Source: Branchiostoma floridae
Lineage: Eukaryota > Chordata > Leptocardii > Amphioxiformes > Branchiostomatidae
Direction of reading: 5' to 3'
Assembly (NCBI RefSeq): GCF_000003815.2
Contig: NC_049992.1
Span: 12,060,131 to 12,124,130, forward strand
DNA length: 64,000 nt
A program made the translations under genes and the position numbers. Below are positions 794 to 22,500 of the stretch, one piece after another. A model generated the notes under the pieces. That model was not told where the DNA came from, did no database searches, and saw only the letters and a list, made by a program, of their open reading frames with translations. Within the stretch, counting starts at the first letter, position 1. Every line of letters starts with the position of its first letter.

Positions 794-2878
794 CTATGTT
801 AGTTATTCCTACAGTTAATGCATGCAGATACAAGTATGTGCACATGTTTCAGTTTTGGTACATTGTAAACCTGAGTTGACTGCAGTTTACTGAAAGCTTG
901 CCAATTTGGTGATATTCTTAAATTCTTCCATCAACATCATTGAGAACATTCCATTTCTTTTTCAAAACAAAATTGGTTCATTAAACTGTAGGCAACTCAG
1001 GTAACCTTTTTATGTGACACTAGGCCTTGTCATGCTTTCTAGACTTTTTCCTTGTTGAGTTGCTGTATTTAGCAACATTCTTTCAGTTCCCTCTGCGGCA
1101 ATAGTTAACAGCTATGTTACAGCTCTGTGTGGAGGATGGATCATACTTGTGTGATGCATTATGGAAATGACATGTAGACAAAAGCATGCTCACAATGTTT
1201 TTAGTATCAAGAAATCACATGCACTCTATTGAATGCTCACTGTTGTATTGACATGCACACTGTTTTGTAGATGAAACCCAATGTTGTATGATGCTTCATT
1301 GTGTGTTTTTAATGATGTTTATAGTTCCTGTTGGTAAACTTAAATAGTTTAGTATACCATTGGCTAGCTGTTAGAAGTTGATTACAAACAAGCTCTGTTC
1401 TTCTGTTCTTTTCTGTTTGATAGGTTATTTCACTTGTTCCACTTAAAATAGATGAGACACTTGTAATGAAACTAGTGTTGTTGTTCCATGTACCTTTGTG
1501 CACACTTGTTGTGGTATGAACCACAGAAAACATGTACTCCACTTACTAGTCATTGATGTGCTGTTGACAATGAAATGTACAGTACAATGTATCCACTGAC
1601 AAAGGAAGTATGCTGTACAGAATTTTACCATGTTTGTGAACAATATTGTGTACATAGATGTGAGTTCTCTCTTTAGTGTATTTTTGTACAATGCCAGTAT
1701 TGCAAAAATGTGAATACAAAATGATCATTTAAGATGTCTGAGTTTGTCCTCGTTTTGTCATGCCTTTTCCAATACATAATTATTAGTTAATGGTACATTT
1801 AAGGTATGGAACAGTCCACCATGATGCAATGATGATAAACCAGTAATGGTCAATGATAATATTGATATTGACACAGGTAAGTTTATGATATTTTGTTTAT
1901 TGACAATTTTGTAAAAAAGATTCAAGAGGTCCATACACCCCTGTAATAACGATGGGGATAGTATAGAATGTGGTACAATCAACTCACAGCTGAAGCTACC
2001 AACTCATGAACTACATTCTACAGAAAGTTACAAGCACACATTATTAGATTATCCACATATGTTACACAATATGCAACACTCTTATTACATGACATGACAG
2101 TATCCTGACTATATGAACATGTCTCACTATCAGCTGAACAATGATGGATAGCATGTGTACATATGCCTTCACTCAACAATGGAACCGGCCATTGATCATT
2201 GACACAAGTAAACATGCACAAACCATCTATATGTAAAATGGAATGCTGATGGTGAAATAAAAAGAACACATAAATAGACATCAACATTACACTAATATAT
2301 AGCCACCATTGTCAAGTTGAACTTTGGTATACAATGGTATGTTTCGACTACCTTAGTTTTGAAGCACACATCAAGACCTATGAATATAATGTGATCATCA
2401 ACACTTCAAAACACCACTTGTTAGTATAGCAATGATAATTTACTAACTGGAAGATGTCACCGGTAACACTGCATTACTATGTGGACTGGTATTTGCAATT
2501 TATACACAGGTTCATTAAAGATAGGAAAATCACAGTTTTCACAAGACGATCAACATCACATATGAAATCAGGTAACTCTTGCATCATCTTGTGATGCATA
2601 TTACAACAATCTGATCACAGCACAATCATTTCAATCTTGAATGTGTATTGAAAATGTGTGTGCTGGTGCTTGGTAAATGACCTCCCCCCCCCCCCCCCCG
2701 GATTTTAGATCCACACAGTGTCAAAGGAATAATACAGCTGTAAAAGAAAGGTCCTGATATATGATAGCCATGCATACATGTAACTCAGGGACATGAAGTG
2801 TCATCAGACAGCAGTAGTGCATCCGTTAGTCACATGTCTGCACATTAGATGAGGGCTTCCATGACAATACATCCCTGA
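794..2878. other. Non-coding stretch upstream of the zinc-finger cassettes
   Basis: The sequence is AT-rich with only short open frames that match nothing I recognise. A run of 16 C lies at 2684-2699. It is probably an intron or an upstream flank of the zinc-finger gene. I see no finger motif or exon with a convincing splice acceptor here. Confidence 0.5.
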
Positions 2879-3060
2879 GTACCAAACTATTTCTGCCAAG
2901 GCCCCTTGCACTTGCTGCCCTAAAAAAACTCTGTTGTAACCACTAGCTCAATATTTTCGCTTGCTAATGTTGTTAGCAGCATGAAGATTGAGCCAGTGGT
3001 TACAACAGAGTTTTCTAGGGCAGCAAGTGCAAGGAGCCGTGGTAGAAATAGGTTGGTACC
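2879..3060. mobile_element. Foldback (inverted-repeat) element just before zinc-finger cassette 1
   Basis: Two arms of about 70 bp (2879-2952 and 2987-3060) are inverted copies with roughly 90% identity around a loop of about 34 bases. The shared core includes CTTGCACTTGCTGCCCTA in one arm and its reverse complement in the other. This is the structure of a foldback or MITE-type element. It carries no coding capacity. A clear target-site duplication was not found. Confidence 0.7.
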
Positions 3061-3217: not shown

Positions 3218-3615
3218 GTCGACTTGACCCCATGGGAAGTGGTCTGGTGGAAAAGGCGAGAGATGGGTCGTCACCATGGCAACAGGATGTGGGGAAATCT
3301 AAGCCCCAGTTGGCTTCGGAGAGGCCAACATCGTCTCGTAGTTCTAATCTAGAAGCAACACAGAAACACACATGCCCACAATGCAAGCAAACGTTCCAAT
3401 GTAGTGATGAGCTGAGGAAACATCTGGAGGTCCAGCACCAAAAGCTGACCTGTACAATATGTGGTGCGGTGCTGGCTGGCAAGTATAATTATAAGAGGCA
3501 TATCATGTTCAAGCACAGCACCCAACGAACTTTTGCCTGCAGTTACTGTGGGAAGACTCTGAAACGCAAAGATCACTTGTTGAGACATCTACGAAACTAT
3601 CACGCTACGGAGTGA
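3218..3615 (+). CDS. Zinc-finger cassette 1 (alternative 3'-terminal exon, three C2H2 fingers)
   Basis: This predicted terminal exon encodes 131 residues. The chosen acceptor is the AG at 3216-3217, because it aligns with the acceptors of cassettes 3-5 and gives the same entry phase, with one base supplied by an upstream exon. The frame is also open back to 3118, so the exact start is not proven. It opens with a linker (GLVEKARDGSSPWQQ) that recurs in cassettes 3 and 5. Three fingers follow: CPQC..H-x4-H, CTICGAVL..H-x4-H and CSYCGKTLKRKDHLLRH-x4-H. The stop follows the last finger closely. The product is probably one DNA-binding C-terminus of a nuclear transcription factor whose shared N-terminus lies outside the window. 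An AATAAA lies at 4390. Confidence 0.75.
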
Positions 3616-4795
3616 TTTCTTTGTTACAAAATCTCTCAAGCAGTTGTTTGAGGTTCCATTCAAATTCTAAGTAGTTGTCAAATTAGAAATAGGTATAGAG
3701 ACAAGCACCATCCAGCAGTTCTGTCATTTTTCTTGTTATTGCACTTTTTCTTAAGGGTAAATAGAAGGTATACCTTTTTCTATCTGAACTGTGAGAAATC
3801 GAAACACATTTTTCAGTATCATGTACTCGTATATTCGGTTTCTGTTGGGATGTTTTTTTCAAAAACAAAATCATTTACAAAATGTTTTCAATTCTTTGTA
3901 ATTATATGTCTAAGAGATTTTATACTTATTTCGAACGTTATTTCAACTTTCTAGATATTACCCTGGCTGTGTAAGACTAGAAATATTGATGTGGAATAGG
4001 ATATCTCTAATACTTTCTAAAGAATGGTAACAGTATTCTACTATTATTTACATTTTTTTGTAACGAGTCAGGGACCTTGAAAGAAAGCAATGATTGTACA
4101 CAGCATCACAGGAATGATGATTCCAATGGTAGAATTACTTGATAATGTTTTATCAGAGAACTGTTTCTTATGTTTGGTCAGGAAAGACTGACTTCAGTTA
4201 GGACTTAGGTCATGTACATCAACAGTATATTACATTTTGCATGTTTGGTGAGAATGGTCTGGTGGATATGTCGAGAAAACGTTAATTCCTGTTTTTTTAC
4301 AACAGTTGGTTATCATTAAGTATGACTGACAGTGTGACTTTGTGTGTTTCATTATAGGAAGCAGAGTTGTGTGTTGTTACCAATGGAAAAATAAAGCTCC
4401 ATGTTCCTACATGGAAACCTTATGATCAGATCATAGACTGTATTTGAATTTGTCAATTGATATGGAGCTAAGACTACTAGTAAGAGTACAGGGCATAATT
4501 ACAAGTCAATACCATGATGATGATGATGAACATGTTGATGTTGAAGAAAGTATCATTCCATGATGAATTATCAAACTGTGCAAGGTCATGAACTAATTTC
4601 TGAGTAACAGTTGTAGATAATTTACAACTTGTGTTCATGTTAACTGTACTCCAAGAAGCAAATGGGTATCCAAGTGAGCTAGATGGAAGTCTAGCCAAAG
4701 AAGTTAAAAAATGATGGTAGTACACACATGCTATGACACAAGCAAGTCTGAAAACACTGTTACTTGTTTTACTTATAGTGTAAGATTATGAAGTT
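3616..4795. other. Probable 3'UTR of cassette 1 and spacer
   Basis: There is no coding sequence here. An AATAAA at 4390-4395 would serve a transcript ending in cassette 1. The rest is AT-rich spacer before cassette 2. Confidence 0.5.
4390..4395 (+). terminator. Poly(A) signal AATAAA for cassette 1
   Basis: A canonical hexamer lies about 775 bases after the cassette 1 stop. Its presence before the next cassette supports use of cassette 1 as a last exon. Confidence 0.5.
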
Positions 4796-4838
4796 GTGAC
4801 TGCCAGATTTTATCTCCTATTCCAATTAAAACCTTTGA

Positions 4839-4938
4839 NNNNNNNNNNNNNNNNNNNNNNNNNNNNNNNNNNNNNNNNNNNNNNNNNNNNNNNNNNNNNN
4901 NNNNNNNNNNNNNNNNNNNNNNNNNNNNNNNNNNNNNN
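4839..4938. other. Assembly gap (100 N) inside cassette 2
   Basis: Exactly 100 N, which suggests a gap of unknown size. It hides the acceptor, the linker and the first cysteine region of cassette 2. Confidence 0.99.
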
Positions 4939-5176
4939 CTCCTGTGGTGAGAAGTTTGAATCGCGTTCAAAGCTCACGAAGCATGTGAGATCCCTGCACC
5001 AGAGGATGAGGTGCACGATATGTGGTCTGGAGTTGTCCAACAGGTTCAACCATGACAGGCATGTGAAGATGAAGCACACCAGCCAGCGTGACTTCGCCTG
5101 TGTTGTGTGTGCAAAGACATTCAAACGGAGTGACCACTTACAGAGACACATGCAAAATACCCACCCATCTTGGTGA
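4939..5176 (+). CDS. Zinc-finger cassette 2 (5' part lost in an assembly gap)
   Basis: The visible 3' part of a cassette contains the end of one finger (second Cys, then ESRSKLTKHVRSLH), then CTICGLELSNRFNHDRH-x4-H, then CVVCAKTFKRSDHLQRHMQNTH. The stop is TGA at 5174-5176. Finger spacing and the HTSQRDFAC inter-finger linker match the other cassettes closely. The splice acceptor and the N-terminal part should lie within the gap at 4839-4938. It is the same kind of alternative terminal exon as its neighbours. No AATAAA was seen before cassette 3. Confidence 0.7.
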
Positions 5177-5808
5177 GATCTTTTTGTATATTAGCAAATA
5201 CATGTACATGACGTATGTTTCAAGGATCTCGCCAAAACAGAGAATCAAGTGTCGATCTAGTTTTACAGGTGATGATAGGAATCAGCGACAGTCATGACAG
5301 TGTTCCCCAAGACACAAGGCTTTAAAGTTTAAATGCATCCCTGAAGGAAGGGATTGTATCTCCCAATCCGTATGGCACACAAAATCACATAACATCAACT
5401 AATTTCAACACATCCTGGTTTAAAGGTTAACAAGTTCAGTGTCCTATCATATTCAACTGAGCAACAACAACAATCCACTGAGCTGACATTTCTGATGACA
5501 TTATCCAAGCAACCCAAGGTCTGAGCTCTGTGTTACAGTGTTGACACAGATGTGACAAATCATGGACATATAAGTCACACACTGCACACATTATTTAAAC
5601 CTGGAGGACTAGGCTGTTGTACAGAGTGCTGTACTTACTGTTCCACCAGACCCAGTCTAAGATTTCTATGTCCAGATGATATTTCTCATTTTGATGGATC
5701 ATCAGATTCATACAAAGCTGGTGTGTTACTCTGAAGAGCCATTATACCGACTATATCGAAACAGATATTCCTGCCTAGAAATTGAACTTGACCTCTGTTC
5801 GTCCTCAG
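5177..5808. other. Spacer between cassettes 2 and 3
   Basis: Non-coding. It ends in a good acceptor (TTGACCTCTGTTCGTCCTCAG). The stretch just before that acceptor is nearly identical to the one preceding cassette 4. Confidence 0.5.
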
Positions 5809-6404
5809 GTGGCAGTGACCTCGCGATAGTTGGTCTGGTGGAAAGGACTAGAGGAGAGGCAACCCCGAGGACCCAGGAACATGACATCACAAGGCCTGAA
5901 CCACTGTTTGTTTCTGTGAATCCTATGAACAATCCCCTGGAACAGGGGCATGTAACCGTGCACACCTGTGGTCAGTGTGGAGAACAGTTCAGGGAGCAGG
6001 AGGCACTACATCACCATGTGCAATTGCTCCACCAGGCACCATGCAGTAGTCACAATGATCCGTATGGTGATGTTGGTGCTTCTCCAGGCATGGCAGGCAG
6101 ACAGTCGTTGGACCAGTCACACATGCTATCATTCGTAACCCCGGATGGAACTCTCTCCTATCCATGTTCAGACTGTGATATGACATTCATGTCGTCTACA
6201 GATCTCCTTGCACATATAGAGGCCGCCCACCAAAAGGCCCACTGTACCCTATGTGGACAGAACTTTTCCTGCAACTCCAGCCTACAGAGACATATCAGGG
6301 CTGTACACAGCGCACTGCGACATTACGTCTGTGACGTGTGCGGGAAGGCCTTCAAACGGAAGGACCACTTACAGAGACACATGCAGAACACGTGCAGGAC
6401 ATGA
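5809..6404 (+). CDS. Zinc-finger cassette 3 (alternative 3'-terminal exon, four fingers, last one C2HC)
   Basis: The exon follows the acceptor AG at 5807-5808, enters in phase 1 and encodes 197 residues. The linker GLVERTRGEATPRTQ is followed by a Pro-rich segment. Four fingers follow: CGQCGEQF..H-x4-H, CSDCDMTF..H-x4-H, CTLCGQNF..H-x4-H and CDVCGKAFKRKDHLQRH. The last finger ends H-x4-C (RHMQNTC), so it would bind zinc through a C2HC set. The stop comes three codons later. Compared with cassettes 1 and 2 it has an additional second finger. The nearest poly(A) signal, AATAAA at 6792, lies inside a hAT transposon, so the 3' end may have been taken over by that insertion. The DNA target is unknown. 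Confidence 0.8.
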
Positions 6405-6617
6405 CAAAATCTGAGAACATATTTACTTTAGGACTGCGTGCTACCTTTTTGTTACCAAGCACATTTTTCCTGGATGATACAACCATACCTATAGCCTCCT
6501 ATGGAAGTACATGTATGTTGATTATAAACTAAATGGTTGAGTTTGTATACGAGTCTTATCCATACCGGTAGTAAGAAACAGTTTGTTCTTCCCAGAATTG
6601 CTTTCCTTTGATGATGT

Positions 6618-6960
6618 CAGGGCTTTAGCCAGCTCGAAACTTTTTTCCGTCAGCCAATCGTCGCGAAAATTAATTAGAAGGACCAACGTCCTTGGAAGGA
6701 CTGAACTGAGACCTTGAAAAACGGGTTTTAATGAGATTATCGTATGCGAAAGGGCACCGACACACATTGTCAACAATCATAACAATAGCAAAATAAACAG
6801 TGTGTGGCTTTTACGGCCGTGGATGGCGTCCCCAAGCCGCCTGAAGCTTCCACCAAGGATTTTTGTCCGTCAAGGTTGACGGATTGGTTTGAAAATTTTT
6901 CCGTCAGACGCAACAAATTTCTGTCAATTGACGGAAAAACGGACGCTGGCTAGAGCCCTG
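6618..6960. mobile_element. hAT-type non-autonomous element with perfect 8-bp target duplication
   Basis: The 343-bp element starts CAGGGCTTTAGCCAGC and ends GCTGGCTAGAGCCCTG (15 of 16 terminal bases match as an inverted repeat). It is flanked on both sides by GATGATGT (6610-6617 and 6961-6968). CAGGG ends plus an 8-bp duplication are diagnostic of the hAT superfamily. Its interior (about 6705-6845) is closely related to 46850-46985 inside the larger hAT element at 45913, so it looks like an internally deleted relative. It carries no transposase. Confidence 0.9.
6792..6797 (+). terminator. Poly(A) signal AATAAA inside the hAT element, downstream of cassette 3
   Basis: This is the first AATAAA after the cassette 3 stop, 388 bases downstream, and it belongs to the inserted element. 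The related element at 45913 has AAACAAA at the same place, so the signal seems to have arisen in this copy. Use as a real poly(A) site is inference. Confidence 0.35.
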
Positions 6961-7554
6961 GATGATGTGGACTCCACTGCTTCATCACGTTCAGACTTTT
7001 TAAAATTTTCAATCAATCAGATTTTGAATAATGTCATGAATACATGATGGCTCTTGGATGATGTGTACATAACCTGGTAAGTTACCTCAATCATAGGTGT
7101 TGCATTTCAAAGCCATATCTTCTGGAAAATCGAACATATCAATTTTCACAATGAATAGAATCTGTCAGTTGATTTATCACACACATTTGTTGGAGAAATG
7201 TGTACCTAGCTTCTGTAAGAAAACTTGGGCCACAGAAGGGCTTTTTTATGTGTGAGGTTAAAGCCATTGGTTATGTAATTTTTTGGGTAATATTACTTCA
7301 GATATGTGACTGTACAATTCCAATGTACACTTTCAATGTACAATGAATGTTAGCAATCGTTAAAACTAATACTGTTAAGGCTGTGTTGGTGCTGTAGTCT
7401 GGGCATTGTTGACTCTTTGTGGTTTGTGTACTGTTTTTAGATTGTTTATCTGTATGAATGATGCTGAATAATCAGTGCACATGTTATTAGGTACTTAGTC
7501 TTGAGCACAACATTTCATAGATATGCCATTGCGATCTCTATTACATGTTTTTTG

Positions 7555-8278
7555 GACCCCATTCACACTCAGAAAAACGATTCGGATCAAACATTTATCC
7601 GAAAAAAAAAAATTCTATCCGATCCAAAATTGCGTTCACACTCGTCTTTGGCAATCCGATTAGTGCGCCCTCAGTCTTATCCGAATGAAACATTAGGCTG
7701 AGGTCAAAGGGTAGCGCCATTTCTTACAGCTCAAAATGGCGGGAATCCACCAACTTTTGATGCTGTTGTTCCTCTGGAGAATGTTCTGTAGTCGTAGAAG
7801 GGAACGCAATCAACGGTCTTTGATCGCGAGAAGGTTTCACCGACAAAGTCTTCTGCATATTGGGATAGCTGTAGTACAGCTCAGATGTACGCCACCAGAG
7901 CGGCAGACAGAATGATCTGGGAGCGGGAGCGAAGCCTTGATTGGTGGAACAACATTGCGCTTTGAACATTTTCAGACTCGGACTGGCAGAAAAACTTCTA
8001 ATTGAGCAAACTCACCTTTATATAAGTTGCATCCTATCCACTTAAAGTGAATCCTATCCACTTGCGCGTTCACACTGCCGAATCGAGACTCCCCGTGGCT
8101 CAGTTTTATCCACTTGCCGGAGTTCTATCTGCCTCCCCGAGGTGGATCGCGGGGGATTCGAATCGATGAAATCCAAGTGATTTGGGAGCGTTCATACTGC
8201 TAAGTTTTATTCGGATCGGGTAGTTTTATTCGGATAACATGTTTTATTCGAATCGTTTTTCTGAGTGTGAATGGGGTC
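7555..8278. mobile_element. DNA transposon derivative with 30-bp terminal inverted repeats
   Basis: The two ends share a perfect 30-bp inverted repeat beginning GACCCCATTCACACTCAG. Subterminal sequence repeats TTCGGAT / ATCCG motifs in both orientations. The length is about 724 bp, too short for a transposase. A 59-codon open frame at 7736-7915 begins ATGGCGGG and is rich in Arg, but I do not recognise it. GGGGYC..TTCACACT ends suggest a PIF/Harbinger-like family. The flanking duplication is not clear enough to assign a superfamily. Confidence 0.75.
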
Positions 8279-8583
8279 TTAATACATGCATTACTATGTT
8301 GAATGTTCCTCTTAGAATCAAATGTGGTTTATTCATGTTTACTCATGTTTCGTGCACATGAACTTCCTTGTGATCTATTAAAAGTTATTTGCACTTGAAT
8401 TTCTGTATGTGGTGTTTATTCAAAAGGTTGTCTCCTTTTACATCAGACTTTTTGTCACTTTTTACACCAGGCTTTTTTTCTGGAGGCTTTATCTAATTGA
8501 ATATTTCTCTCAACTGTTGTCAGCTGATCAAATTATATGAAAATGGCCATCTAAAATTGAACTTGACCTCTGTTCATCTTCAG

Positions 8584-9218
8584 GTCACCATGACCCAGCA
8601 GCAGCAAGTCTGAAGCAAACTGTGGGAGGGGGATCCTCACTATTCCAACACAACTTCCGAGGGATACCAGTGGAACTAGGAGTACCCTCGTTCATGTCTC
8701 AGTCTCAGAACACGAGTCAGCCAGAGGGTCACGGTGGATACGTTTGCGGTCAGTGTCGTAGACATTTCCTCTCCCATCATGCACTGGTAACCCATGTGAA
8801 GGAGGACCATTTCTCGGCACCTCGACCACCCTCATATCATCTCGAAGAGGCGACCAATGAAAGAGAGCCTGATGCACAGTTTGAAACACCGACCGCACCA
8901 GTCATTCAGCAGCCACCAATGACTGGAGCATCAGGCCCTAGTGAGGATACGGAGCAGTATCCTTGTAGCCACTGTGATAGAATGTTCAAGGCCAAGTCAA
9001 GTCTCATGAACCACTTGAAGTCACAGCATGAGAAGATAGCCTGTGCCATCTGTGGTATGGAATTGTCCAACAAGTTCAGCCACGACCGACATTTCAAGTT
9101 GAAGCACTGTGACCAGCGTGACTTTGCCTGCTTCCAGTGTGGAAAGACTTTCAAACTGAGAGACCATTATAGGAGACACATGCAGAAATCACATCAGGAC
9201 ACTCTGTCGCATATGTGA
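8584..9218 (+). CDS. Zinc-finger cassette 4 (alternative 3'-terminal exon, four C2H2 fingers)
   Basis: The exon follows the AG at 8582-8583, enters in phase 1 and encodes 210 residues. It lacks the GLVE-type linker of cassettes 1, 3 and 5 and instead has a Gln/Ser-rich leader. The fingers are CGQCRRHF..H-x4-H, CSHCDRMF..H-x4-H, CAICGMELSNKFSHDRH-x4-H and CFQCGKTFKLRDHYRRH-x4-H. The third and fourth are joined by the recurring linker KLKHCDQRDFAC. The intron sequence before the acceptor is almost the same as for cassette 3, pointing to a tandem duplication. A variant poly(A) hexamer ATTAAA lies at 9467. It probably gives a DNA-binding isoform of the same transcription factor gene. Confidence 0.8.
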
Positions 9219-9466
9219 TCTTGGATGAAAAGTATGGAGAATTGAAATCAATGGCATACACGGATCGTGTTTATTCTTGGAAGACAAACTGTCGGTGCTG
9301 CAACTAGCTAAAGAGCAATGTCAAACTTGTTGGTGATGCTTATGACTATATTCTATCAAACTGCTCCCCAGCAACTGTGTTCCAAATAATCAGTCATAAA
9401 AGTCTGAACCAACAGAGTTTTCTTCTACCATGAAAATATACACACAGAGGAACAGGGAGACTTATC

Positions 9467-9472
9467 ATTAAA
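9467..9472 (+). terminator. Variant poly(A) signal ATTAAA for cassette 4
   Basis: An ATTAAA hexamer lies 249 bases past the cassette 4 stop and before the cassette 5 acceptor. The placement is plausible but the motif is short. Confidence 0.35.
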
Positions 9473-9689
9473 TGTACATGAAAGGGTTGCATTTAACTAA
9501 AAAGCGACCCCTTGGTGTAATAGTACACAAATGGATGATGACAAATGGATGATGATTTGATGGCGGCAATGGTAATAATGTGCAGACATGCTGCATCTTG
9601 TGCAAACCAATCTGTCCAGACTCATGTGTCATGCATTACATACATCACACGAAGACATCAGAACTCAGTTTGGATTCTTTCGCCTCCAG

Positions 9690-10246
9690 GTTGCCATAAA
9701 ACGAGGACTGGTCTGCTGGAAGAGACGAGAGGAGGACCATTACCATGGCAACATTACATCAGCAGACCTGAACCGCCGACATGCCATGTTTCTGAAGGCC
9801 CCAGGGATCACCTTTGTATTACATGTGGGAAAACGTTTGACTCTCATCAAATGTTAGTAAGCCATGTCCAACTTCATCACCAGTTACCTAGTAGTTACTC
9901 CACGGAGTTGCCTGGAGATTCTCATCCAGGTGCAACAGCCTCTTCTGGCAGTGAATCTGCAGGTCCAGGATATCCAGCAAAGTACGGTAACCCAGAAGGG
10001 ACGTTAGAGGAACATCAGACGTTCCACACCTCTGCAGATGCTGCTCGTCACGCTAAGCTACAGCGTCAGAAGAGAGAGTGCTCCATATGCGGCGTAGAGC
10101 TGTCCAACAAATATAACCACGACAGGCACGTTAAATTGAAGCACAGTAACCTGCGTGACTTCGTTTGCACCTGGTGTGGAAAGTCGTTTAAGCTGAGGGA
10201 ACACCTGCAGAGACACATGCAAAAGAACCACATGCCCATGCCATAA
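9690..10246 (+). CDS. Zinc-finger cassette 5 (alternative 3'-terminal exon with one decayed finger)
   Basis: The acceptor AG is at 9688-9689, with phase 1 entry; the exon encodes 184 residues. The linker GLLEETRGGPLPWQ matches cassettes 1 and 3. Finger 1 is CITCGKTF..H-x4-H. Where cassettes 3 and 4 have finger 2, this cassette reads EEHQTFHTSADAARHAKLQR: the Phe, Leu-like and first His positions remain, but both Cys and the last His are gone, so that finger is a fossil. Fingers 3 and 4 are intact (CSICGVELSNKYNHDRH-x4-H; CTWCGKSFKLREHLQRH-x4-H). ATTAAA lies at 10729. Confidence 0.8.
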
Positions 10247-12114
10247 TAACACACATCCAGACTGGAGTCTGCCAAGGCAAAGCTAGATAAACAGAGAAAG
10301 TAGCAACTTGATAATAAGGAATCAGTTTTTATTCTTCACATGTATCAAGTTGAACATACTTTTTCAGCAGTGACCTGACAGCATGAAACTTTGTACAGAT
10401 AGATGATGTGATGTAATGATCTGGTTTTGTTTATCATAGCTACACCTGCTCTAGGTGCGAAGTTGGAATAAGACGTCATGCAATCTTTGATTTTTGTGTG
10501 TAGATTTGAAGTTTCCATTGATTTTTGCTCTTCTATGACAATCAATTATGAGTATCCTAAGGATGAGTATGAAGATGAGTATCCTGTCTGAACTGTCTGT
10601 AGCTGCCATGCATCAACAAATGATGCAAGGAAACAATTGATTTTGATTGACTGATTGATTGATTTATTGATGCAAGGAAAAAAGAAACCTTTGATGGAGG
10701 CAGGAGTTGAGTCGTATTAGTTGATTACATTAAATATACATGTAGGATGATGGTTATAATGTAGGGTGCTTTAGAACATGGGAAATCTTTAAAGCAGGTG
10801 CTTGTATTAGGTACCTTTGTGTCATTACTGCCGGCCATGTCTATCATAGAATACGAAAACGCGCTAGACATTCCTTGGTTATTTCGAAGACCTGGACTTA
10901 TTTGTTTTGCGGTTGACATTTTGTAAACCAGACAGCAAACAGTTGTACAAAATCATAATTTCAGTGCGCACATATAGTGAAACTGTTATTTACTTAGCAA
11001 TATGTTAATTGAATCATTATTTAGGGAGTTCGCCATTGTGGAAAGGTGAAATGTTCAACATCTGAGGCTACGTTTTAAGCACGTTAGTTGGGGGTTTGTT
11101 TTCTTTATTGTTGTTACTGTATAGTACTGATTATGTGACATGTACAATGCAGTATTGGTTTTAGTGCGTAGATATGTAATGAAACTATTCTTGTAAGGCA
11201 TGCAGAACGTTCTGAAATGTAAGCAAAAAACAAACAAACTTTGTAGGTTATGTTTGAATCCTGTTGGGAGTTTGTTCGTGTTTAGTTTGGTTATTTTAGA
11301 GCCTTACGTATGTTGGCATAATGGCAATGTAAAGCAGAGTGTGCTCTTTTGTCAATCTAGATGTAGATCACAAAAAGTTAATAGCACAGTATTGTAAGCT
11401 TGTACGTATACAGCAGTACATGGCACAGTATTGTATGTATGTAAGCTTATACAGCAGTACATGGTACAGTATTGTAAGCTTGTAAACCAACGCCTTTTGA
11501 TTTTCAGTTTTTATGTTACACCACTTTTTCCTTTTCGTAGCTTATATACATGTTTTCTTCAAATATGCGTCTCGAGTCATTATTGTGTTAAAGCATTGAT
11601 ACATTTAAAGGAATAGAATGTGAGAATTTCTACAAAATCATGACAGCTGAAGCAGAACAACGCATTTGTAATTGTCCTTGGAAGCCACCATGTCATACAT
11701 TGTAACTTTCACTGACGACATTGTAGTGTATGGAAAGGGAAAAGACTAGAACACCGACCAGGGGTACCTCAAGGCATCATGCTTGGGCCCCACTTGTTGG
11801 AGGAGGGGTGCCCACAGATGGACGATTCAAATTAGATTCCGTTGTTTCTTCCTTTTGTGACATTAGCGTTGTTTTCCCTTAACGTGACCTTTGTCTTGCC
11901 ACTAAGTCTTTCTCACACTTGTCTTAGAATCGTGAATGCCAGTTGGCCGCATTGCATTATATAGAAGATCAAGTACCATTTACTTAATTAGTAACACCAA
12001 ACAGTAGCCTTAATGCGATTCACTACAATATATTGAGCTATAAAGCTATACAGTATTTGAATTCTGAAAACGCGCTTTAAATGGTCATGACAGAGGTACG
12101 TTCTTTGTCTATAG
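10247..12114. other. Probable 3'UTR of cassette 5 and spacer before cassette 6
   Basis: I find no coding sequence. Candidate poly(A) signal ATTAAA is at 10729-10734. An imperfect tandem repeat of about 55 bp lies around 11390-11485, with repeated GTAAGCTTGTA and ACAGCAGTACATGG. Confidence 0.45.
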
Positions 12115-13319
12115 AAATGCCGAGGAGCTCGGGCGGTACTCAGCAGCCGCACCAGTGGAGGGAAGTCCTGGGCACCATGCTTCCTCAGCAGTACGACCAC
12201 CTGCAACCGCCAGGGGGCGCAGCTGATTTTAGCGTGTACGGCGACCAGCGTGGCGACGAGGGCGTGTTCTGTGACCTGTGCGGCAAACGGTTCTACAGGA
12301 AGCAAAACCTTATTAACCACAAGCGGGAGGTACATGACAAGATGAACGTCGTGGTAAGACAAGTATAGCTCCGTGTTGTTTGATATGTGATTCAATTGGA
12401 CTTATTTGTCTGTAAATTGTCAAAAACATAAAGCCAGGGCTACCCAGCTCGCTATGAATGAATCGTCTTCTGAAACAAGGAATATGCGAAGGGAATGATC
12501 ATACCATTTGATCATGTTTATTGATTGCATTCCACTTATTCGATTCTCTAAATATCAGTTTGTCCCATTGGTGCCTTTACAGACATGTGAGCTGTGTGGG
12601 GCCGAGGCCTGTAATAAATACAACCTGGCCAGGCACATGAGGACCAAACACAGGTGAGTCTCCAGACGATACCATATTCCTTTCCCCGTATTTTCCTCGA
12701 TTTGTTTATGTACAGTTACATCAGGGGATCATGCGTAATACGGTGTTCCTCAGTTTCGTCCCTCCCTGTTTCCCTTCCAAGGGTACTGTCACCCTTATTG
12801 TACAATGGGTTTATAACAGGATTTTTAAGGGAGGGAATTTGTAGCACATTGATGGGTGTGTCGTACTACAATGTAATCTCCAAGCAGATCCTACGGTGCC
12901 AAGGAAAATAGCGGGCCAAAGGGAATCAGACGGGCACTCCGGTCGCATACACACTCCTAGGCCGGTTTTACTCCTCTGCCAGCCTTTGATACTATTTTAT
13001 GCCACCGTAGGATCTACTTGGAAATTATTTCGTATACAACAACAAGCCGACTTGGGACGGAAAATGTCGCTATTGATTATTTCTAACGATACGATACCTT
13101 CGCTGAAAATCCCAACATAAAAACTACGCCCAAACAGCGGATTGCTACGTCATAACGTTTCCTCTGTCTCTCTCTGACCGTTCTCACAGCGACAGCCGTA
13201 ACCACACGTGTCACGAGTGCGGGAAGTCCTTCAAACTGCGGCATCACATGACGCGCCACATCATGAACAGGTCGTGTGCAGACAGCAACGCTCCAAATGC
13301 TCCACCAGACAACAGTTAA
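12115..13319 (+). CDS. Zinc-finger cassette 6 (three exons, one finger per exon)
   Basis: The exons are 12115-12353, 12583-12653 and 13190-13319; all junctions are GT-AG and the frame stays open, giving 145 residues. The chosen acceptor (TTCTTTGTCTATAG, AG at 12113-12114) gives phase 1 entry like the other cassettes. An ATG at 12081 is in frame and could alternatively make this a separate gene. Exon 1 holds CDLCGKRFYRKQNLINH-x4-H, exon 2 CELCGAEACNKYNLARH-x4-H, and exon 3 CHECGKSFKLRHHMTRH with a terminal H-x5-C. Cassettes 1-5 carry the equivalent fingers without introns. An AATAAA lies at 14399. Confidence 0.75.
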
Positions 13320-13473: not shown

Positions 13474-13683
13474 TACTGTAAATGTATTTAAGTTCGCGGG
13501 AATTTAATTTCGCGGTAGCGGGAAAAAGGACTTTTCGCGGTGGATTTAAGTTCGCGGTAACACCGTAGACTGCAATCTAATATCATAATAGAAAAATGTT
13601 CGCGGTGGTTTTAAATTCGCGGTGAAGTGGTCACCGCGAAAACCGCGAACATTAATCCACCGCGAACATTTCTGCATTTACTA
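13474..13683. mobile_element. MITE-like inverted-repeat element rich in TTCGCGGT
   Basis: The ends read CTGTAAATGTATTTAAGTTC and, inverted, AGTAAATGCAGAAATGTTCG, and the interior repeats TTCGCGGT / ACCGCGAA in both orientations. About 210 bp, no coding capacity. TA-flanked ends are possible but not certain. It lies downstream of cassette 6 and before its poly(A) signal. Confidence 0.6.
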
Positions 13684-16600
13684 TTTCAATGACGTGTTTG
13701 ATATCGCAATCAGTTTCTGAGACCGAAAGGAAAGTTATATATAAATTTATTTTAGAGGTATAAGGCAGAAATGTTGACTTAAAAAGAATAGATGTATATC
13801 TTACTACCAACTCGGGTCTTCTTGGTGATATAGAAATGTCAACGTTTTAGGCTAAGCTGAATGTGCAATAGAAACACATACCCACACGTCGTTTCAATAC
13901 GTCTTGATAAAAAATATATTTGTTTCAGGTCAGGGATCACACGTGTTCTTCGATGTATACTTTGAAAATATTTGGTGCCCAGTCATGAATTTTTAACTTT
14001 GTTACTAGTATTATCAAATATCTTACAAAGGCACTGGTGTTTAATTTAGTACTTCTTTACAAGATTTTATTGTAAGAATGTTTTTCAAGGTCGGTAAGGC
14101 TTGGTGTATGTGACCTATGTATACGTACGTCAGTGGGTGTTATTAAATCATTCCTTGGTGCGTTTTTATAAGCTAGTATATATGGGGTAGGGTATACTTG
14201 CCCCTAGCAAATTTTGCTTTCATTGTAATAGTCCCATGAATTTTACATGGCGTCTCAATAACATTTTGAATAGCTGGATATAGCATCACGAGGGGCCTAA
14301 GTCATACTCCTAATGCTCTTGTCGCCAGGGGATATATACGGGACTGTTATTTGAGCATTTTAGCCGTTACTTTTGTTGTAAGTATGTTTATGGCACGAAA
14401 TAAAGTGGAAGAAGTTGCACTAAAGTCTGTGTCGAATCCATCGGAAGAAATTCCATGACGTCAGAAAAGTGCCAACAACAATGGTTGCGCTTTGTGACAT
14501 ATCGCCTGCAGAACGCAACGGATTACAACCTCTCTTGGGCTTGTGGTTTAGTGTTTATAATGTACACGTAAAAGCTATGTGACTGATGATGACGCATGTA
14601 ACGTCATCACCGCAACACACCAAGTTGCGATGATGCAGCAATAGTTATGTGATTATGCTACAGTTGGTTTAAAATTCTCAAAGACCTAAGCCTGTTCCAT
14701 AATTTTGTCATTGGCAATATTTCGAACAGTTGTAGATTTTACACGAGTGACGGAAACGTCTACCCCGTTTCACATAATAGCACTCATCAAGTTGTCATTT
14801 TATCTGGTCCAATTATGTTTTGGAGACATAGTATGTTTATGTCAATGAGCTATGAAGGGCGATGCTAACTTACAGAAGCGCCGCCTATCTTGTTATTGTA
14901 CGTCGTGTTCACACTACCTGGCCACTACATGTATGTCGCGAACTCATTACATCATGAAATTTCGCACACATAAAATCTATATTTGTTGTGACGCTCTCTC
15001 CTTTTTGATAAACGTTTCCAGCGTAAATCGATCCCGTGCCCTGTATCCGGGTGACATGTTCCTGAAGTGCTTTCCATGTTTTCCAACATTGGTCTGCACG
15101 CGCCACGAGGTCCCCATAGGGCCCTTCTTCAAGTGCTTTTCCACTTCTCTCTATTGAATTTTGTCCGGGCGGCGTTTTTACCTGAGGAATGAGAAAGGTG
15201 TTGCGCAAGTTTACGTTCTCTCTGGTTGTTGCAAAATTTGGATTTTCCGCCGAATTTGCCCGGCAGACGAACTGCATGTGTACTTTGTGCAAAGGTTCTG
15301 AATGAGGACGTCTCATGACAGCTGGTCAGTCGGGATGGCTTGGACCTGAAGTGACCACGACGCCAAGCGCTCAGATAGGATTAGGTTGTCTTCTGCAAGA
15401 GTGTTTCTGGTAAGGTCTTGTACACATTTCCCTGGACTTTTTCTTCATGACCATTTCCTTCATGATTTTGTTTGAACCTTTATTTGATGTCAAACTCACA
15501 GGAAAAAAAACGGTGGTTATCAACAAAACATCGATATGGGTCATATGAATTTCAATACACGATCAAAGAGCGAACTGTTTATCATAGACGTTTTTGCTAC
15601 GCGCTCAGATGTTGGTCGGATGTCCTTCGGAGAATATCACTAGTGGGCCCAAACCTCAGCGCCAACAGTTACTAGTACTATGTATTTTCACACTACAAAC
15701 GTCAGTATCACATCTATAGTGTTTCAAAGCTCACATGTATTGTTTCGAGCTGAGTTATTGAAAAATGTGTTTTGGTAAGATACTACATACTATGGGTAAA
15801 TAAATGTTCGGGACCCATAATGCCGATAACTTTTTGAAGTTTGGGGTTGAGTCAACCGTCTCGAGCTAGGATACAGCGGGCAGTTTTCTGAATATTCGAC
15901 GGCGGTTGTAACCTGGTATCCAAAGCTATCATAGCGTGTTTTATTTGCAAAATACTGTAAAAATAGCGACTAATCAACTAACTAAATTTATATGGTTTAA
16001 TGTTTACTATTGTCGCAAATAGCGCGAGAGGACGAAGGGACCCGGCAGTTTTTATAGGTTTTGATACCAGGCTACGGCGGTTGTGTTATGTTTTGCTGTG
16101 GTACACGGTTTATAATGGTCAGCTATTGCTACAAATGTGTACTTTAAACAGTTTGATATGCCACAGATGTAAACCACGGTTGCTATAGCGGTCTGTGTGT
16201 GCTTGTTGTTACGCAAGTATAGACGTAGCGAGCTTGAAGCCGCTCATAAGAACACTTTATATCAGTTATACAAATTGTAAAGAGTCTTGTGTGTTTTCGC
16301 GCCACTGCACTTTGCTGAAGAGTTCAGCCCAAGAGCGCTCCACAATTGTTGACGTCTCTTAAAAGGTTACATCTGTTCAATAAATAGTAAGGAAAATTTC
16401 TTTAAGTACCGGCTGATGTTGTGGAGTACAAAACTTCAATGAAATGATTTTGGTTTTGCAAGATGAACTTTTAGCCGCAATACTTTGAACTGTTAGACTT
16501 TCTTCGCATATTGAAAATACTGTACTGACTAATTATGTATGAAGTGCAATATTGTGAGCTTTATAGCCGGCAAGCTAGATATACCAATGATTTAATAAAA

Positions 16601-16892
16601 AATCAATTGAAAAATAATTTCCATTAAAAATTAGCTCAATGGCTTAGCTACCCAAGGCGAACTCAATCTCATACTAGTATCTTACCGACTTACGTTAATT
16701 TTAACATGACGCTGATCGAAATCTTTATAAACACATTGGAACGCTTTGCTGAACAAGTGATATCTTTCAGTTGAGACAGAGACGATGAAAAGTAAATGAA
16801 AATTACGTAAGTGGATACTTTAACAAGCGCCTCACAAAGTTAAGCCCACTGACTGACTGACTGAATTACGAACCACGTTTCTGTGTTTGCAG
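13684..16892. other. Spacer between the zinc-finger cassettes and the death-domain gene
   Basis: The only clear signal is AATAAA at 14399-14404, probably for cassette 6. A strong donor-like TTCTG|GTAAGG lies near 15410, after an open frame starting ATGACAGCTGG at about 15314. It could be a 5' exon of the death-domain gene, but its phase would put a stop in the next exon if coding, so at best it is 5'UTR. The rest looks non-coding. Confidence 0.4.
14399..14404 (+). terminator. Poly(A) signal AATAAA for cassette 6
   Basis: A canonical hexamer about 1.08 kb downstream of the cassette 6 stop. Confidence 0.45.
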
Positions 16893-19800
16893 TTCACTAT
16901 GACAACGGTAGGTGGAGACATCCCAACCCAATGAAGCCCAAGCTGTTACAAATGACCAATATGTTCGGCATTAGGAAGTATTATGTAAGTTTTCTTCTAA
17001 ATACACTATCTGTATATCTCTAATTTCTTAAGCTTCCGATTTCACCAGGGTGTTTTCTTTTACACAATCAGTGGTATGGTCTCACCTGCTTACGTTTCGA
17101 TGTCTATTAGACATTAACACTCCAGTCAGAAGCTTTGAGGAAGTTGTCTGATAAGCAGGAGGGACTATAACTGGTTGTGGAAAAGAAAACTCCAATATCC
17201 TCTGATTTATTCTTTTGATCTGAAATTCTTCCACCGACGTATGTCACATATTAAAGATGAAATCTTGAAGCTCTGGATGGAAAACTTTTTTTTGCAGAGG
17301 GAAGACTTAGAGCACTTCACACCCCGGGAACGAGAGGACTGGGTGCTGGAGCAGTTTGCGGCTTATGATGACGAGCTCAGAAACAATCCTGGGGACGACT
17401 TTGTAGAGGAAGTGCTGAAGAGGCTCCAAAAGGTTTGATTTTTGCTCAAAACTTTTCACCCTCTTGCATCATCATTAGCTTCACTCTCATATTTCATGAT
17501 GAAATACTAACGGGCGAGGTAGAATACAAAATACGTACGTTCAGCACACCACAAAACATTCTATAAGCAGAGGTTAGGCTCCATTTGTTTTGGCGCCTTT
17601 TCAGGCGTTTTCGTCAGGTTTTCAATTTCGTCAGGATTCATGTGTGTGGCTGATAGACAAAAATAATAGCTGGCAAAATAGAAAGTCCGATAAGACGCCC
17701 CAAAAAATGCACAAAACAGCTGGAGCCTAACCTTTGCTCATAAAGTAACCACAAAAGGACTTAATACCATACCTAGATCTCATTTGATTACATTGGTTAT
17801 AACCTAACACTACATTTTTAGTAACAGTAACTTTTTCCACAGGAGACGAAGAGGTGGATCTCCTGGAACCATCGCGCCTTCGGGCCGGTCAAGTCCCGTG
17901 CCCAGATCCTGCATCTCTCGCAGTGGGTGAAAAACCTCAAGCGTAGAGGTAAGTTTTTCTCAGTTATTAACATGTTATGTACATGTCTTAACGAAAATCT
18001 TGTTAAGGATCCTTTTTTCCCCTACTGTACATTTTAGACATGGACTTCAACCTGCAATTGTACACAATTGAATTATACTATTCACCTGGGGACCAGTCTT
18101 TCCCAGGGCTGTAGGCCCAGTGTTTTTCCGCAATTTAACCTTCTTTTCCCGCCTGGCCAACTTTTTGCTTAGTTTGATAAAAAAAATGATAGCCCTAGTT
18201 GCCATTAAGGGTCTTCCTTGGAAGTCTATCGAAGGAGGGGGGTGGTATGTTAGCCCTAGTGCGGTCAAGCTGGCCTGTGTGATCACTAGGTAGCTATCGG
18301 GAAGCACATTGACATGTTGTCATTCATTCATTCCCTCACTCCACAACCACAAGGTTTTATCTACACGTCCGGAGACACGGATGACGATGTGGACGTGCTG
18401 GACCAGTTCGAGGATCACGTGCTCAGGTTTGACATCCTGCTGGACACGTTCAAGGCCAACATCTACAACCCGCTGGCGGACTTCTTCTACGACGACGATG
18501 AGGCCGCACTGGACCTCCAGGACATCATCTTTGAACTGGATTCAGGTGAATACAACGAAACTCCTTTCTAATTACCTGCAGTGAAAAACTGAGATTTTGG
18601 GACGTTGGCGGAGTATTTTGTCGTAACTTTGATAAGTTGATTCGAAATTTATTCCAAGTCTAAATAATAAATCTAAAAGAGGAACATTGCCGAATATGTC
18701 AAATACAGTCTAGTTTTCCCTATATAAATAAATATAGGGTGGCGTTACATTAATGATAAAAAAAGTCTCCTGATCGCCCCTGTTCTGTTGTCACCAGCTT
18801 TGGATGCCTGGAAAGGTCTGATGAGCTGGGAGGACGTGGACGCCTCGCTGTTCACCTTCGCCAGTAAGGGGTGTGTGGACGGCCTGACGTGCCGGCAGGG
18901 GCAGCGGGACTTCGGGCTGGTCCTCCGACTCCTCCCCGACCTCAGCGAGAAGGCCCACGAGAGCCTGCGGCTAGTCCGCAGGTGGCGCCTGATGCAGGCT
19001 GTTGACAAGGCAGAGGCCTCCACGCCGAGAAAGTACGGCAAGGGAGACACGCCGGCCAAAGCGTACGGAAAGTCCTCCAAGAAACACGCAGCCGCGAGAA
19101 ACGACGAGGACGAGCTGAGAGACGAAGACGAACCGTCCGCCGTCGATGACGAGCAAACCCGAACCAGCTTTTCGGTCGAAATCAGTAAGCGTAGGAAGTT
19201 CAAAGGACAATATGGCAACGCGAAGTCTGACCTGGCGAAGTACGAAAGCCGCTGTCAGGAGCTGGAGGCGGAGATACAGAGCCAGAGAAACAGGGTCAAA
19301 GACCTGGAGAAACAGCTGCGAACTGCCCAGAGGAAGTTCAACAAGTTCGAAAACGAGGTTCGGGGTGAGAAGCGGAACTACAGGAAGCTGAGGGAGAGGT
19401 TACAGGCCATGAAGAAGGACAACAAGCAGCTGGAGTCTCATCTGGACAACACAACAGACAAGTACCACTCTGTGGTCGCACAGATGCAGCAGATACTGCG
19501 CAGGTTCGCCACTACATTTATTTGTCGTCATGCCAGTTTGTTCAAGTACATGTAGGTGGAAAAGTGCAGTATTTGGATCCACAGAATTCATTCATAAGTA
19601 ATTCCATGCGTAACTCCATGACTCTGAAGCTTAGAGGCTCGTTTTTATGTCGACAGTCTGTCCTTTGTCGTACTCGTAGAACAAGAGATGATTCAGAGTT
19701 GATATGAGGTAAAAAAAATATATGTCAGTTTTTTTTTTATTGTCGATGTTGCCGACAGGTCCAGACAACTGCGGGACTACCAGAACCAGGCCAAGGATAA

Positions 19801-22099
19801 GGTGGAGGGTTCACAGAAGGAACTGAAGGAGGCGAACGAACAGATCAAAGCGCTACTGAACGAACGGAAGGCCCTGAAGCGGAAATGTGCCTTTTTGAAG
19901 ACAAGAGCACAGAACAACGACGCCAAGGCTGTGTAAGTGTTTAGGTATAATGCATGAGTTGTAGCATGGGCCTGCGAAGGTTTTTGTTTTTCGTACAACC
20001 TTATCGGGGCAACTTCCCTGTACCGTCAACTTCCCACATTGCATTCTAGGGAAGAAAGAGGCCTGAGTTTAGACTAGATATTATCCAAACTTTACGTCAT
20101 AGCCATAAATCGATTTTAGCAACTAACATTTTTGGAACGAGGAAAAAGAGGAAAAAGTACAACTTAGGCTTTCTGTTTTTCTCTTGACAGTCACATGGAA
20201 AGTCAGTTGGATAAGACCAAGGAACACGGTCAATATACAGAGAAGGAGCTCTTCAAGGCAAGAGAAGAACTGAAGAAGCTACAAGACAAGCTCAGCATCA
20301 ACGAGAAGAAGACGCAGAACATGGAGGAAAAGTTCGTTCTTACTGGATTTCTCTTATCACGCGTTCTTGTTTTGCACTGAAGACTGAAGCAGAGTAAATA
20401 CGGTTAAAATTCACTGTGTTGTACATATTGGATTGTCAGAGTACTGTAAGGGAGACGGCCTGGAATATGAGAGACACATTTTGTTCACTTTGGCAAGCAT
20501 CTTGATTTCCCTCTAAGCGTATTGGACACTGTAGTCGCTGTGTACGTACGGTGTACTGTATTCATTTCCCGCTACACAACGTATATGCTGACGGAGCTGT
20601 TTCTGCAGGTTGTTCCAGGCGCGGGAACGTGCTGACACCATCCTCAAGGAGCTGAAGGAGAAGGAGAAGCGGGCGGAACAGCTGGAGCAGGAACACACAC
20701 AGCTGCTGGACATCTTCAGAGGTGGGCATAGTGCAGATAAAGTTTAAAAAAATACTTTTCTTTGTCCTATCCATATATAATATACAAACTCGATATTGAC
20801 ATATTGCGCAATCACATTAAAGGGATTATAATTAAATCTCCCCATTTGTGTCTAGCCTTAGTTTCTGATAATTTACTTTCTATAGTAATCATATTTTATT
20901 ACATTTGCAGAAAATTACAACGACATGTCTTGTCTGCGTATAGTACCCATGAAATAATTGCAGATAAAGTTTATGCGAATAATTCTTTTCTGACCACAGG
21001 TACGTTTTAATTATCTAGACACGCCATAGATCCTGTGTTGTAAAGACTCTTTTGTTGTAAGGTTCTTTTACCCTCTTCTATTCAGAACTTCCAAAACGGA
21101 AAGAGAAGCCGCTCTCGAACTACCAACTCGACGTCATCGCTGCGAATATTGAAGACTTCTGGCCGGATGTTGCCAAGACGCTCGGCATGTCTCGGACAAC
21201 CACCGATCACCTTCGCCGCGACTACTCCGACGAGAAGAACCGAAGTCGCGCGATGTTGTACGAGTGGAAGGCACGAAGTGCCGAGAAGGCAACCATGAAG
21301 TCGCTGGTGGCTGCGCTTATTGCGATGGGCTACGGACATCAGGACACAAAGGCGGTTTTTCAGGTATTGAAAACAGTACGTTAGAAGGACAGCTATATAA
21401 CCAGTAATGCGCGGTAACTTTTATAATTTTGTTAATGCTTCTCTCATGTAACATCCCAATGATGATAACTATCTCAAACAATTATTGATGGTGTATATCT
21501 TATTACAGAATCAGCTGACCAAGAAAGCGTTGAAGACCAAAGAATTGAAAGACCGTCAGGCTGTTAAAGAGGAATCGTCGGGGCGAGGCAGCAGTGGTTC
21601 TAGCGGGTACGAGTCAAACGCCAAGGCTCCGACAACTTGCGACTTTGACGGCGATCGGGAGTACGAGTCCCTGCCGAAGATACACGATCGTGAATATGAG
21701 TCGGCGAAGAAAAACGATCCTGACTACGACTACGACTCGAGAAGGCACGACCGAGACTACGAGAGGGACGACCGCGACTATGACAGGCGCGACAATGAGT
21801 ACGACAGAGATGGTCGTGAGTATGACAAGGATGGCCACGAATATAACGGGGATCGTGAATACGACAGGGACGATCGGGACTACGGCAGAGATGACCGTGA
21901 CTACGACAGGGATGACCGAGACTACGACAGGAATGGCCGCGAATACGACAGAGGTGAATACGACAGGGACGACCCTGAGTACGAGACTGCCCAGGAGAGG
22001 CGTGATCCCGAGTACGACTATGACGCTATGCTGAAGAAGGACGACTATTTGCCAAAAATGCGCGGGCGAGAAAGAACTGCTCCGGAAATTGAATATTGA
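16893..22099 (+). CDS. Coiled-coil and death-domain protein with charged Asp/Arg/Tyr repeat tail (5' incomplete)
   Basis: Ten exons join in frame: 16893-16984, 17298-17432, 17843-17948, 18354-18545, 18798-19503, 19759-19932, 20191-20331, 20609-20721, 21086-21363, 21509-22099. They give at least 841 residues. The first exon begins with two bases that complete a codon, so an upstream exon is expected; ATG at 16931 is the first in-frame Met and could be the start if the upstream part is UTR. The N-terminal third is acidic and unrecognised. Residues about 300-560 are heptad-like and highly charged (coiled coil). The exon at 21086 encodes a death domain: helices around DVIAANIEDFWPDVAKTLGM, a Trp in LYEWKARSAEKAT, and LVAALIAMGYGHQDTK. 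The last exon adds about 25 units of RDYD/REYD type. A role in death-fold signalling (adaptor by domain content) is inference; no ortholog recognised. Confidence 0.75.
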
Positions 22100-22500
22100 A
22101 TGCTCACGCAACAACCTCGTTTGACTTTGAGCTTGAGCTATGAACGATACAAAGAACACTCCTTACCAGTGTCACCATGTTAAACTATGGTAAAGGCCTA
22201 GGCGCCTTGAAGCATGCACTGTCCGGATGTGTGCCGCACGTATGTCTTTGCGTGTGAGTTACCCCCTCTCTTTCCATGAGTGTACGCGCGTACATGTAAA
22301 CAAACTGTATATATACATGTGTACTTGTGATCACAAAGGAATCACTTCGTCCAATCCTTGAAAGGTTTTAGATGGGATTTTACCAAACATTGCAACTTGA
22401 ACCCCATCCCAAGCTGGTGTAACGACCACATTTTTCAACTTAAACTGGGCCATATTTATATTTCAGCCATACCATAGGTATGGTGAAATATATTGTATTC
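22100..22500. other. 3' flank of the death-domain gene
   Basis: Probable 3'UTR. I see no AATAAA before the repeats; the first is at 22939 inside the tandem repeat. Confidence 0.4.

Follow-up and report, generated by a model that had tools for sequence, protein, structure and literature searches.

Arrays of alternative DNA-binding tails, as in lola and mod(mdg4), and splicing by docking and selector sites, as in Dscam1, are known from arthropods. In the Drosophila Broad-Complex, a shared N-terminus with a BTB domain is combined with one of a few alternative zinc-finger sets. For lola, 20 isoforms are reported, 17 of them with C2H2 fingers, and for mod(mdg4) at least 30 alternative 3' exons (both PMC11426971); PMC6071210 gives 48, 33, and 12 exons for the clusters of fly Dscam and at most three for those of humans. 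The subject of this article is a gene of the lancelet Branchiostoma floridae, LOC118430328, a single gene of ∼47 kb (C14:12026746-12073449) that appears able to offer ∼70 alternative 3' ends to one front part.

The window analyzed, i.e., the whole stretch of 64,000 nucleotides (nt) at C14:12060131-12124130, holds the right-hand end of this gene. Coordinates are counted from its first base (C14 position = 12060130 + x), and negative numbers refer to positions upstream of the window. An earlier note, made from the letters of the window alone, described six C2H2 cassettes on one strand, took the host for an invertebrate chordate, which the lancelet is, and proposed that one upstream N-terminus is joined to six interchangeable ends in a BTB gene of the lola or Broad type. 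Our reading, to which we give a probability of roughly 75%, is that the gene joins one N-terminus to alternative 3' blocks and that, within an array of very short terminal exons, the choice is made by docking/selector competition. A literature search, whose reach did not extend to subscription papers, found no published account of this gene.

Gene Layout and the Constant N-Terminus

A constant N-terminus followed by many alternative ends is established at the level of sequence and annotation. The N-terminus comprises 284 residues and is encoded by two exons at C14:12026746-12028310, 32-33 kb to the left of window base 1. NCBI isoform X47 (P0001) matches, with 100% identity over its full length, the segments -33384..-33283 and -32570..-31820 joined to the window cassette named C5, for which residues 285-469 align to 9689-10243 (100% identity). 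The donor of exon 2, AATG/gtaagt (the slash marks the splice junction), leaves one base, and this is the base borrowed by every visible cassette; phase 1 is common to all nine readable entries from this exon, i.e., those of the helix-turn-helix (HTH)-like, BEN-looking, zinc-finger, and helical blocks and of cassettes C1 and C3-C6. Every tail block found is on the same strand, within one 47-kb stretch. Thus, at the annotation level, the X47 map and the exon-2 donor uphold the proposed upstream N-terminus with interchangeable 3' ends entered in phase 1. The earlier note had seen no shared N-terminal exon because an intron of 41.5 kb, from exon 2 to C5, separates the N-terminus from the cassettes; indeed, a tblastn search of the window with 20 isoform proteins (E ≤ 1e-3) gave matches at the cassettes only.

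Other lancelet proteins have the same organization. A chimeric query made of C3, C4, and C5 led to lancelet proteins with cassette-like ends that have their first 284-289 residues in common, and residues 1-285 used as query gave 20 clusters at E ≤ 1e-3, of which every named one is from a lancelet, with isoform numbers that reach X47. The annotated isoforms have one N-terminus and then mutually unrelated ends. Relatives of the N-terminus outside lancelets were not found by this search, which needs five-residue words and similar lengths and may miss distant ones.

Regarding the identity of the constant part, the upstream look for a BTB or other exon ending in phase 1, as suggested in the earlier note, does lead to a phase-1 exon, at -32570..-31820, but there is no BTB in it. 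Pfam matches no family to the N-terminus alone, even at E ≤ 10, and a Pfam scan of seven isoforms found no BTB domain; among the best 150 of 702 BTB candidates in the 513-Mb assembly, none falls in the 10.05-12.42 Mb interval of C14. As the N-terminus lacks a BTB domain, this is not a BTB gene. The alternative C2H2 3' cassette array, and nothing else, favors a non-arthropod member of the lola/Broad family of BTB genes, and TTK-type BTB domains are reported only from arthropods (PMC11426971); this identity is refuted at the annotation level by the Pfam results and the candidate scan, and we regard it as hardly credible.

The Mini-Exon Array

One of the tail blocks, the helical module, consists of three plus-strand exons at -25955..-24667 and is found in P0022, P0028, and P0034. 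Its third exon ends in a phase-0 donor, TGG/gtaagt, which faces 60 candidate mini terminal exons. These form an array from -22943 to -632 and were recovered by iterative profile search as 60 short open reading frames (ORFs), each of which begins right behind an acceptor. The hits themselves served to train the profile; 42 loci have E < 1e-3, 17 have values between 1e-3 and 1, and one (-13915) is obtained only from an upstream start. With the same profile, 2461 control ORFs, i.e., 218 from the reverse strand plus 1147 and 1096 from 120 kb upstream (both strands), gave none at E < 1e-3 and one at E < 1.

The acceptor is CAG before 59 of the 60 mini exons and TAG before the other, and pyrimidines account for 75% of the 15 bases that precede them versus 48% array-wide. 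The encoded peptides are amphipathic, with F in the third column in 55/60, R in column 9 in 42/60, and R in column 14 in 47/60; all 60 are net basic, and their mean pairwise identity is 30% over 20 residues. Each mini exon supplies one basic helix and its own stop and would complete the helical module. A subgroup, m28-m31 and m33-m35 (∼-12804 to -10067), has an extra GHD...C...CC end, which is possibly metal binding.

The annotated proteins P0022, P0028, and P0034 each have one mini exon at their end, and the 22 residues of the m5 helix are identical in P0028 of B. lanceolatum. The clusters that these proteins stand for represent 86, 35, and 35 member sequences, respectively, and such sizes fit many isoforms that differ solely in the last mini exon. 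Relatives of the helical module were found in lancelet clusters only, by a search based on five-residue words and similar lengths that may miss distant ones.

The 17-nt Element and Its Reverse Complement

Between the mini exons there is a 17-nt element, ACATTGATAGGTGCATC (hereafter M), with 45 sites that match at 13 or more of the 17 positions, 13 of them perfectly. Scored with a position weight matrix (PWM) whose threshold was the third-best score among 240,000 background positions (best background site, 18.6 bits), M is above threshold in 42 of the 61 stretches around the mini exons. In the top-60 list, the 10-mers that do not derive from M, from the flank of M, or from the reverse complement are each found in no more than 3-4 of the 61 stretches; since scarcely any other 10-mer is shared, the introns have otherwise diverged, and M is held by selection. 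The distances from M to the stop and to the acceptor are variable, with medians of 84 and 155 nt, respectively, and for this reason M is not assignable to either the preceding or the following exon.

The reverse complement of M occurs, at 13/17 or better between -34000 and 14000, at three sites, each 16/17: at -24349, which is 318 nt past the constant donor, and at -893 and -217, which flank the last mini exon. In 300 Markov sequences of equal length, matches of at least 13/17 had a mean of 0.9, those of at least 15/17 appeared once in all, and those of at least 16/17 never. Weaker reverse matches (10.5-11.1 bits) are located at -18614, -4060, and 13330. In terms of pairing, 39 of the 45 M sites can form at least 14 bp of unbroken pairing with one of the three reverse copies, and for 38, 43, and 43 of the 45 sites the predicted duplexes with these copies are stronger than those of any of 300 random windows.

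From this arrangement we infer that pairing governs the choice of mini exon, which we rate as somewhat more probable than not. The phase-1 donor of exon 2 would join one block, i.e., the HTH-like, the BEN-looking, the transposase-type zinc finger, the helical module, or one of the C2H2 cassettes, and, where the helical module is chosen, its phase-0 donor would join one of the 60 mini exons, which supplies the basic helix and the stop. The docking site 318 nt past the constant donor would pair with one of the ∼45 near-identical selectors and so bring an acceptor to the donor, and the other two docking copies, at the array's 3' end, may act in the opposite direction. Isoforms would then differ in the nucleic-acid-binding surface predicted for their C-terminus and share an N-terminal region that serves as partner or effector. 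The 17-nt signal suggests that most tails are picked singly, as in insect Dscam.

M might instead be the site of an RNA- or DNA-binding protein, or the leftover of a mobile hairpin, with the reverse copies as oriented boundaries of the array and without any role in pairing. The changes found inside M, within one genome, lend weight to this idea, as those that break pairing (18) exceed those that keep it by wobble (13), and so do the variable distances of M to stop and acceptor and the presence of M (16/17) at 30133, outside this gene and far from the array, within an inverted repeat of ∼50 bp. Its reverse copies, however, sit where docking sites of the Dscam1 type are found, behind the constant exon and behind the final variable one, and most M sites can pair without a break, as given above; a recent mobile origin is also opposed by the flanks, which are not common to the copies. 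We consider this explanation unlikely, though worth keeping in view.

The inverted repeat itself, at 29930-30175, has arms of ∼50 bases that are ∼75% alike by eye and carries a degenerate reverse M copy at 29957; Rfam gave no match for 501 bases at the 30133 hairpin.

Trans-splicing, which is reported for lola and mod(mdg4) and in which the tails would come from 3' exons with transcripts of their own, would suit introns of up to 41.5 kb, and PMC12692577 is cited in its support. With all blocks on one strand within 47 kb and a docking-like site near the constant donor, we hold trans-splicing to be improbable.

Points That Weigh against Docking-Selected Tails

Several observations count against the reading of one N-terminus with tails chosen by docking, among them the copy at 30133 just described and the changes inside M, which lend pairing no compensatory support. 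A 14/17 reverse copy of M is present at -146244, and, given this and the copy at 30133, M is not unique to the locus. M is also absent at threshold from 19 of the 61 stretches, including those before m1 and m60, and the PWM was derived from the same 45 sites that it then counts. Furthermore, the isoforms cited here (P0001 and the others) are annotation models, not transcripts. Two AlphaFold2 models had low confidence, with mean values of the predicted local distance difference test (pLDDT) of 32 and 35, and so no fold backs the helical or the BEN-looking reading.

The manner in which mini-exon transcripts end belongs to the same list. AATAAA follows 9 of the 60 mini exons versus 10.0 expected (15/60 on the reverse strand), i.e., it is not enriched, and a poly(A) signal behind every mini exon was rejected with AATAAA at background. 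Mini exons as internal exons, with a donor after the stop, were rejected as well, there being no consistent donor. Taken together, these two results keep alive the alternative that mini exons are alternative 3' splice sites, from which the transcript continues, as a long 3' untranslated region (UTR), to a shared distal poly(A) site. The candidate for such a shared signal is the AATAAA at 2256..2261 (plus strand), the sole copy in the interval that runs from the last mini exon (-712) to C1. This explanation implies 3' UTRs of up to ∼25 kb, and other hexamers could serve in place of AATAAA, such as AATAGA, observed 12 times after mini exons versus 4.8 expected; we rate it as a serious possibility that falls somewhat short of even odds. 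It is compatible with the docking model, and both may hold together.

The Six C2H2 Cassettes

The six cassettes of the window are present on the plus strand where the earlier note placed them, each with its own stop as it had reported, and all belong to the gene. They are the last block of ∼70 ends, most of which are not zinc fingers, so that the picture of six ends is incomplete. Five have visible acceptors, at 3218, 5809, 8584, 9690, and 12115, and, as noted before, these enter in the same phase, with two bases of the split codon present and one borrowed.

C1 (3218..3615) has the acceptor gcgtag/GT, phase 1, three fingers, and the stop TGA. The visible part of C2 is at 4939..5176, with its 5' part and acceptor hidden by a gap of 100 N at 4839-4938, and ends in TGA. 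C3 (5809..6404; cctcag/GT) and C4 (8584..9218; cttcag/GT) both enter in phase 1, have four fingers, and stop at TGA, and C5 (9690..10246; ctccag/GT), also of phase 1, has three fingers and the stop TAA and forms the C-terminus of isoform X47. C6 takes two introns: its first exon, at 12115..12353, has the phase-1 acceptor ctatag/AA and the donor gtaaga, its second, at 12583..12653, has the donor gtgagt, and its third, at 13190..13319, ends in a TAA at 13317-13319. The spliced frame is open to this stop and restores the KHSDSRNHTCHECGKSFKL module, which is homologous to the two-finger end of the other cassettes. Cassettes C1-C5 pass the Pfam cut-off for zf-C2H2, and so does C6 once spliced, whereas the first exon of C6 by itself is slightly under it (24.9 of 25.2 bits). 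Identity over the last two fingers is 39-69% among all six, and therefore the cassettes are diverged tandem duplicates and not chance ORFs.

In other lancelets, annotated isoforms end in counterparts of C2, C3, C4, and C5. That of C5 is the tail of P0003 (82%); the visible part of C2 is 80.5% identical to two tails, that of P0024 (B. lanceolatum X39) and that of P0030; C3 has 58% identity to the tail of P0005; and C4 has 76% and 70% to the annotated tails of P0002 and P0004, respectively. Judging from homology and phase, C1 and C6 are presumably used as tails as well; an annotated isoform with either tail was not retrieved, no protein search was aimed at C1 or C6, and the word-based search also missed the well-matching P0024, so that its silence says little against these two.

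That each cassette is a small zinc-finger gene in its own right, with a separate start, might be argued from C6, which has in-frame ATGs at 12081 and 12117 and its own introns. Yet P0001 links C5 to the distant N-terminus, and the visible entries all match the phase of the exon-2 donor, so that we give this idea very little credence. A poly(A) hexamer had been described after most cassettes. This is correct for five of the six if either AATAAA or ATTAAA is accepted, but AATAAA itself follows only C1, C3, and C6, and C2 has neither; as the surroundings carry AATAAA at ∼0.6 per kb, the hexamers after the cassettes are no evidence.

Regarding docking-type repeats near the C2H2 cassettes, no 11-mer recurs in as many as three of the six stretches upstream of them. 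A weak M copy (14/17), which may be due to chance, is found at 12846..12862 (plus strand) in the second intron of C6.

Three repeat structures were recognized by eye around the cassettes. Between C3 and C4, at 7555-8280, is a mobile-element-like insertion whose two ends look like long inverted repeats (GGACCCCATTCACACTCAG...CTGAGTGTGAATGGGGTC); a hairpin-like inverted repeat is located directly 5' of C1, at 2885-3050; and an inverted repeat rich in TTCGCGG, also mobile-element-like, lies behind C6, at 13480-13690.

Non-Finger Tail Blocks

Besides the helical module, three further blocks on the plus strand lie between exon 2 and the array. The HTH-like block, at -31174, is found in P0023 and P0025 and has no Pfam match. 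The BEN-looking block, at -29794 (P0020, P0027, P0032, and P0033), is so called from a likeness seen by eye: the BEN profile gave no match at E ≤ 10 against four BEN-looking tail members, and the PDB matches for this tail are only six, with E of 0.29-0.82, judged to be chance. For the tail of P0020, neither Pfam nor PDB supports the likeness. The transposase-type zinc finger, at -28175 (P0021, P0026, and P0031), matches Pfam zf-Tnp_2: the P0021 tail alone passes with 25.9 bits versus a cut-off of 24, and the whole P0021 protein, with 22.8 bits, is under the cut-off.

Neighboring Genes

The remainder of the window contains parts of other genes. A coiled-coil gene on the plus strand at 16890-22100 includes, at 21061-21381, an exon that codes for a Death domain (Pfam Death, 42.8 bits). 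On the minus strand, Q/P-rich exons extend over 27200-41500, two of which were tested and had no Pfam match; we presume a Polyhomeotic-type likeness for these exons, which Pfam on the two did not confirm. Then, also on the minus strand, there is a weak match at 51828-52190 to zf-RVT, a zinc-binding domain associated with reverse transcriptases (18.2 bits, under the cut-off of 27.5). It is followed at 57100-60900 by the exons of a peroxisomal targeting receptor resembling PEX5, with tetratricopeptide repeats (TPR), for which PEX5-related protein and PEX5 are the closest among natural PDB entries.

Significance and Comparison with Known Systems

If the interpretation is true, a single lancelet locus would let one effector part take on any of ∼70 DNA-binding identities, and would hold binding domains of several folds, partly of transposase type. 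The two designs known from arthropods would then be combined in one lancelet gene, with unrelated protein parts, which would imply that an independent origin of both in chordates is possible, and the gene would be a compact natural test of RNA pairing that selects one exon of 60. Whether this is a chordate case of Dscam-like splicing that arose independently in a nuclear protein, with 60 mutually exclusive terminal exons chosen by RNA pairings that compete, docking at both ends of the array, a swapped recognition-like helix, and a switch to four further kinds of binding domain, the six C2H2 sets among them, is in our view evenly balanced.

Like the Broad-Complex, the lancelet gene has finger ends on a common N-terminus; unlike it, it lacks a BTB domain and has many more ends. 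Zinc-finger 3' exons in one phase, of the lola/Broad/mod(mdg4) type, are present, known from annotation for C5, from other lancelets for C2-C4, and from homology and phase for C1 and C6. With Drosophila lola it has in common the constant N-terminus, the many alternative C2H2 3' ends, and the single entry phase, and it differs in the missing BTB domain, in tails that are mostly not fingers, and in the array of 60 mini exons with docking-like elements. The constant N-terminus with many alternative 3' exons is also that of Drosophila mod(mdg4), in which, however, there is a BTB domain and the tails are of the FLYWCH type, whereas those of the lancelet are C2H2, zf-Tnp_2, HTH-like, and helical, and all on one strand.

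The likeness to Dscam1 concerns its exon 6 and exon 9 clusters, which have a docking-like site past the constant exon and complementary, near-identical elements between the variable exons, and extends to the two-sided design of exon 9, as described in PMC8042237, with further docking-like copies behind the array. The lancelet array has 60 exons versus 48 in exon 6 of fly Dscam, and departs from the Dscam1-type rule of one element per variable exon in the 19 of 61 stretches without M. In addition, the protein is unrelated, with no Pfam domain of the immunoglobulin cell-adhesion type (Dscam family) in the isoforms scanned, each variable exon is a terminal one with a stop, and the host is a chordate. 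The gene thus resembles lola and mod(mdg4) in its layout and Dscam1 in its presumed mode of choice, and is a member of neither family.

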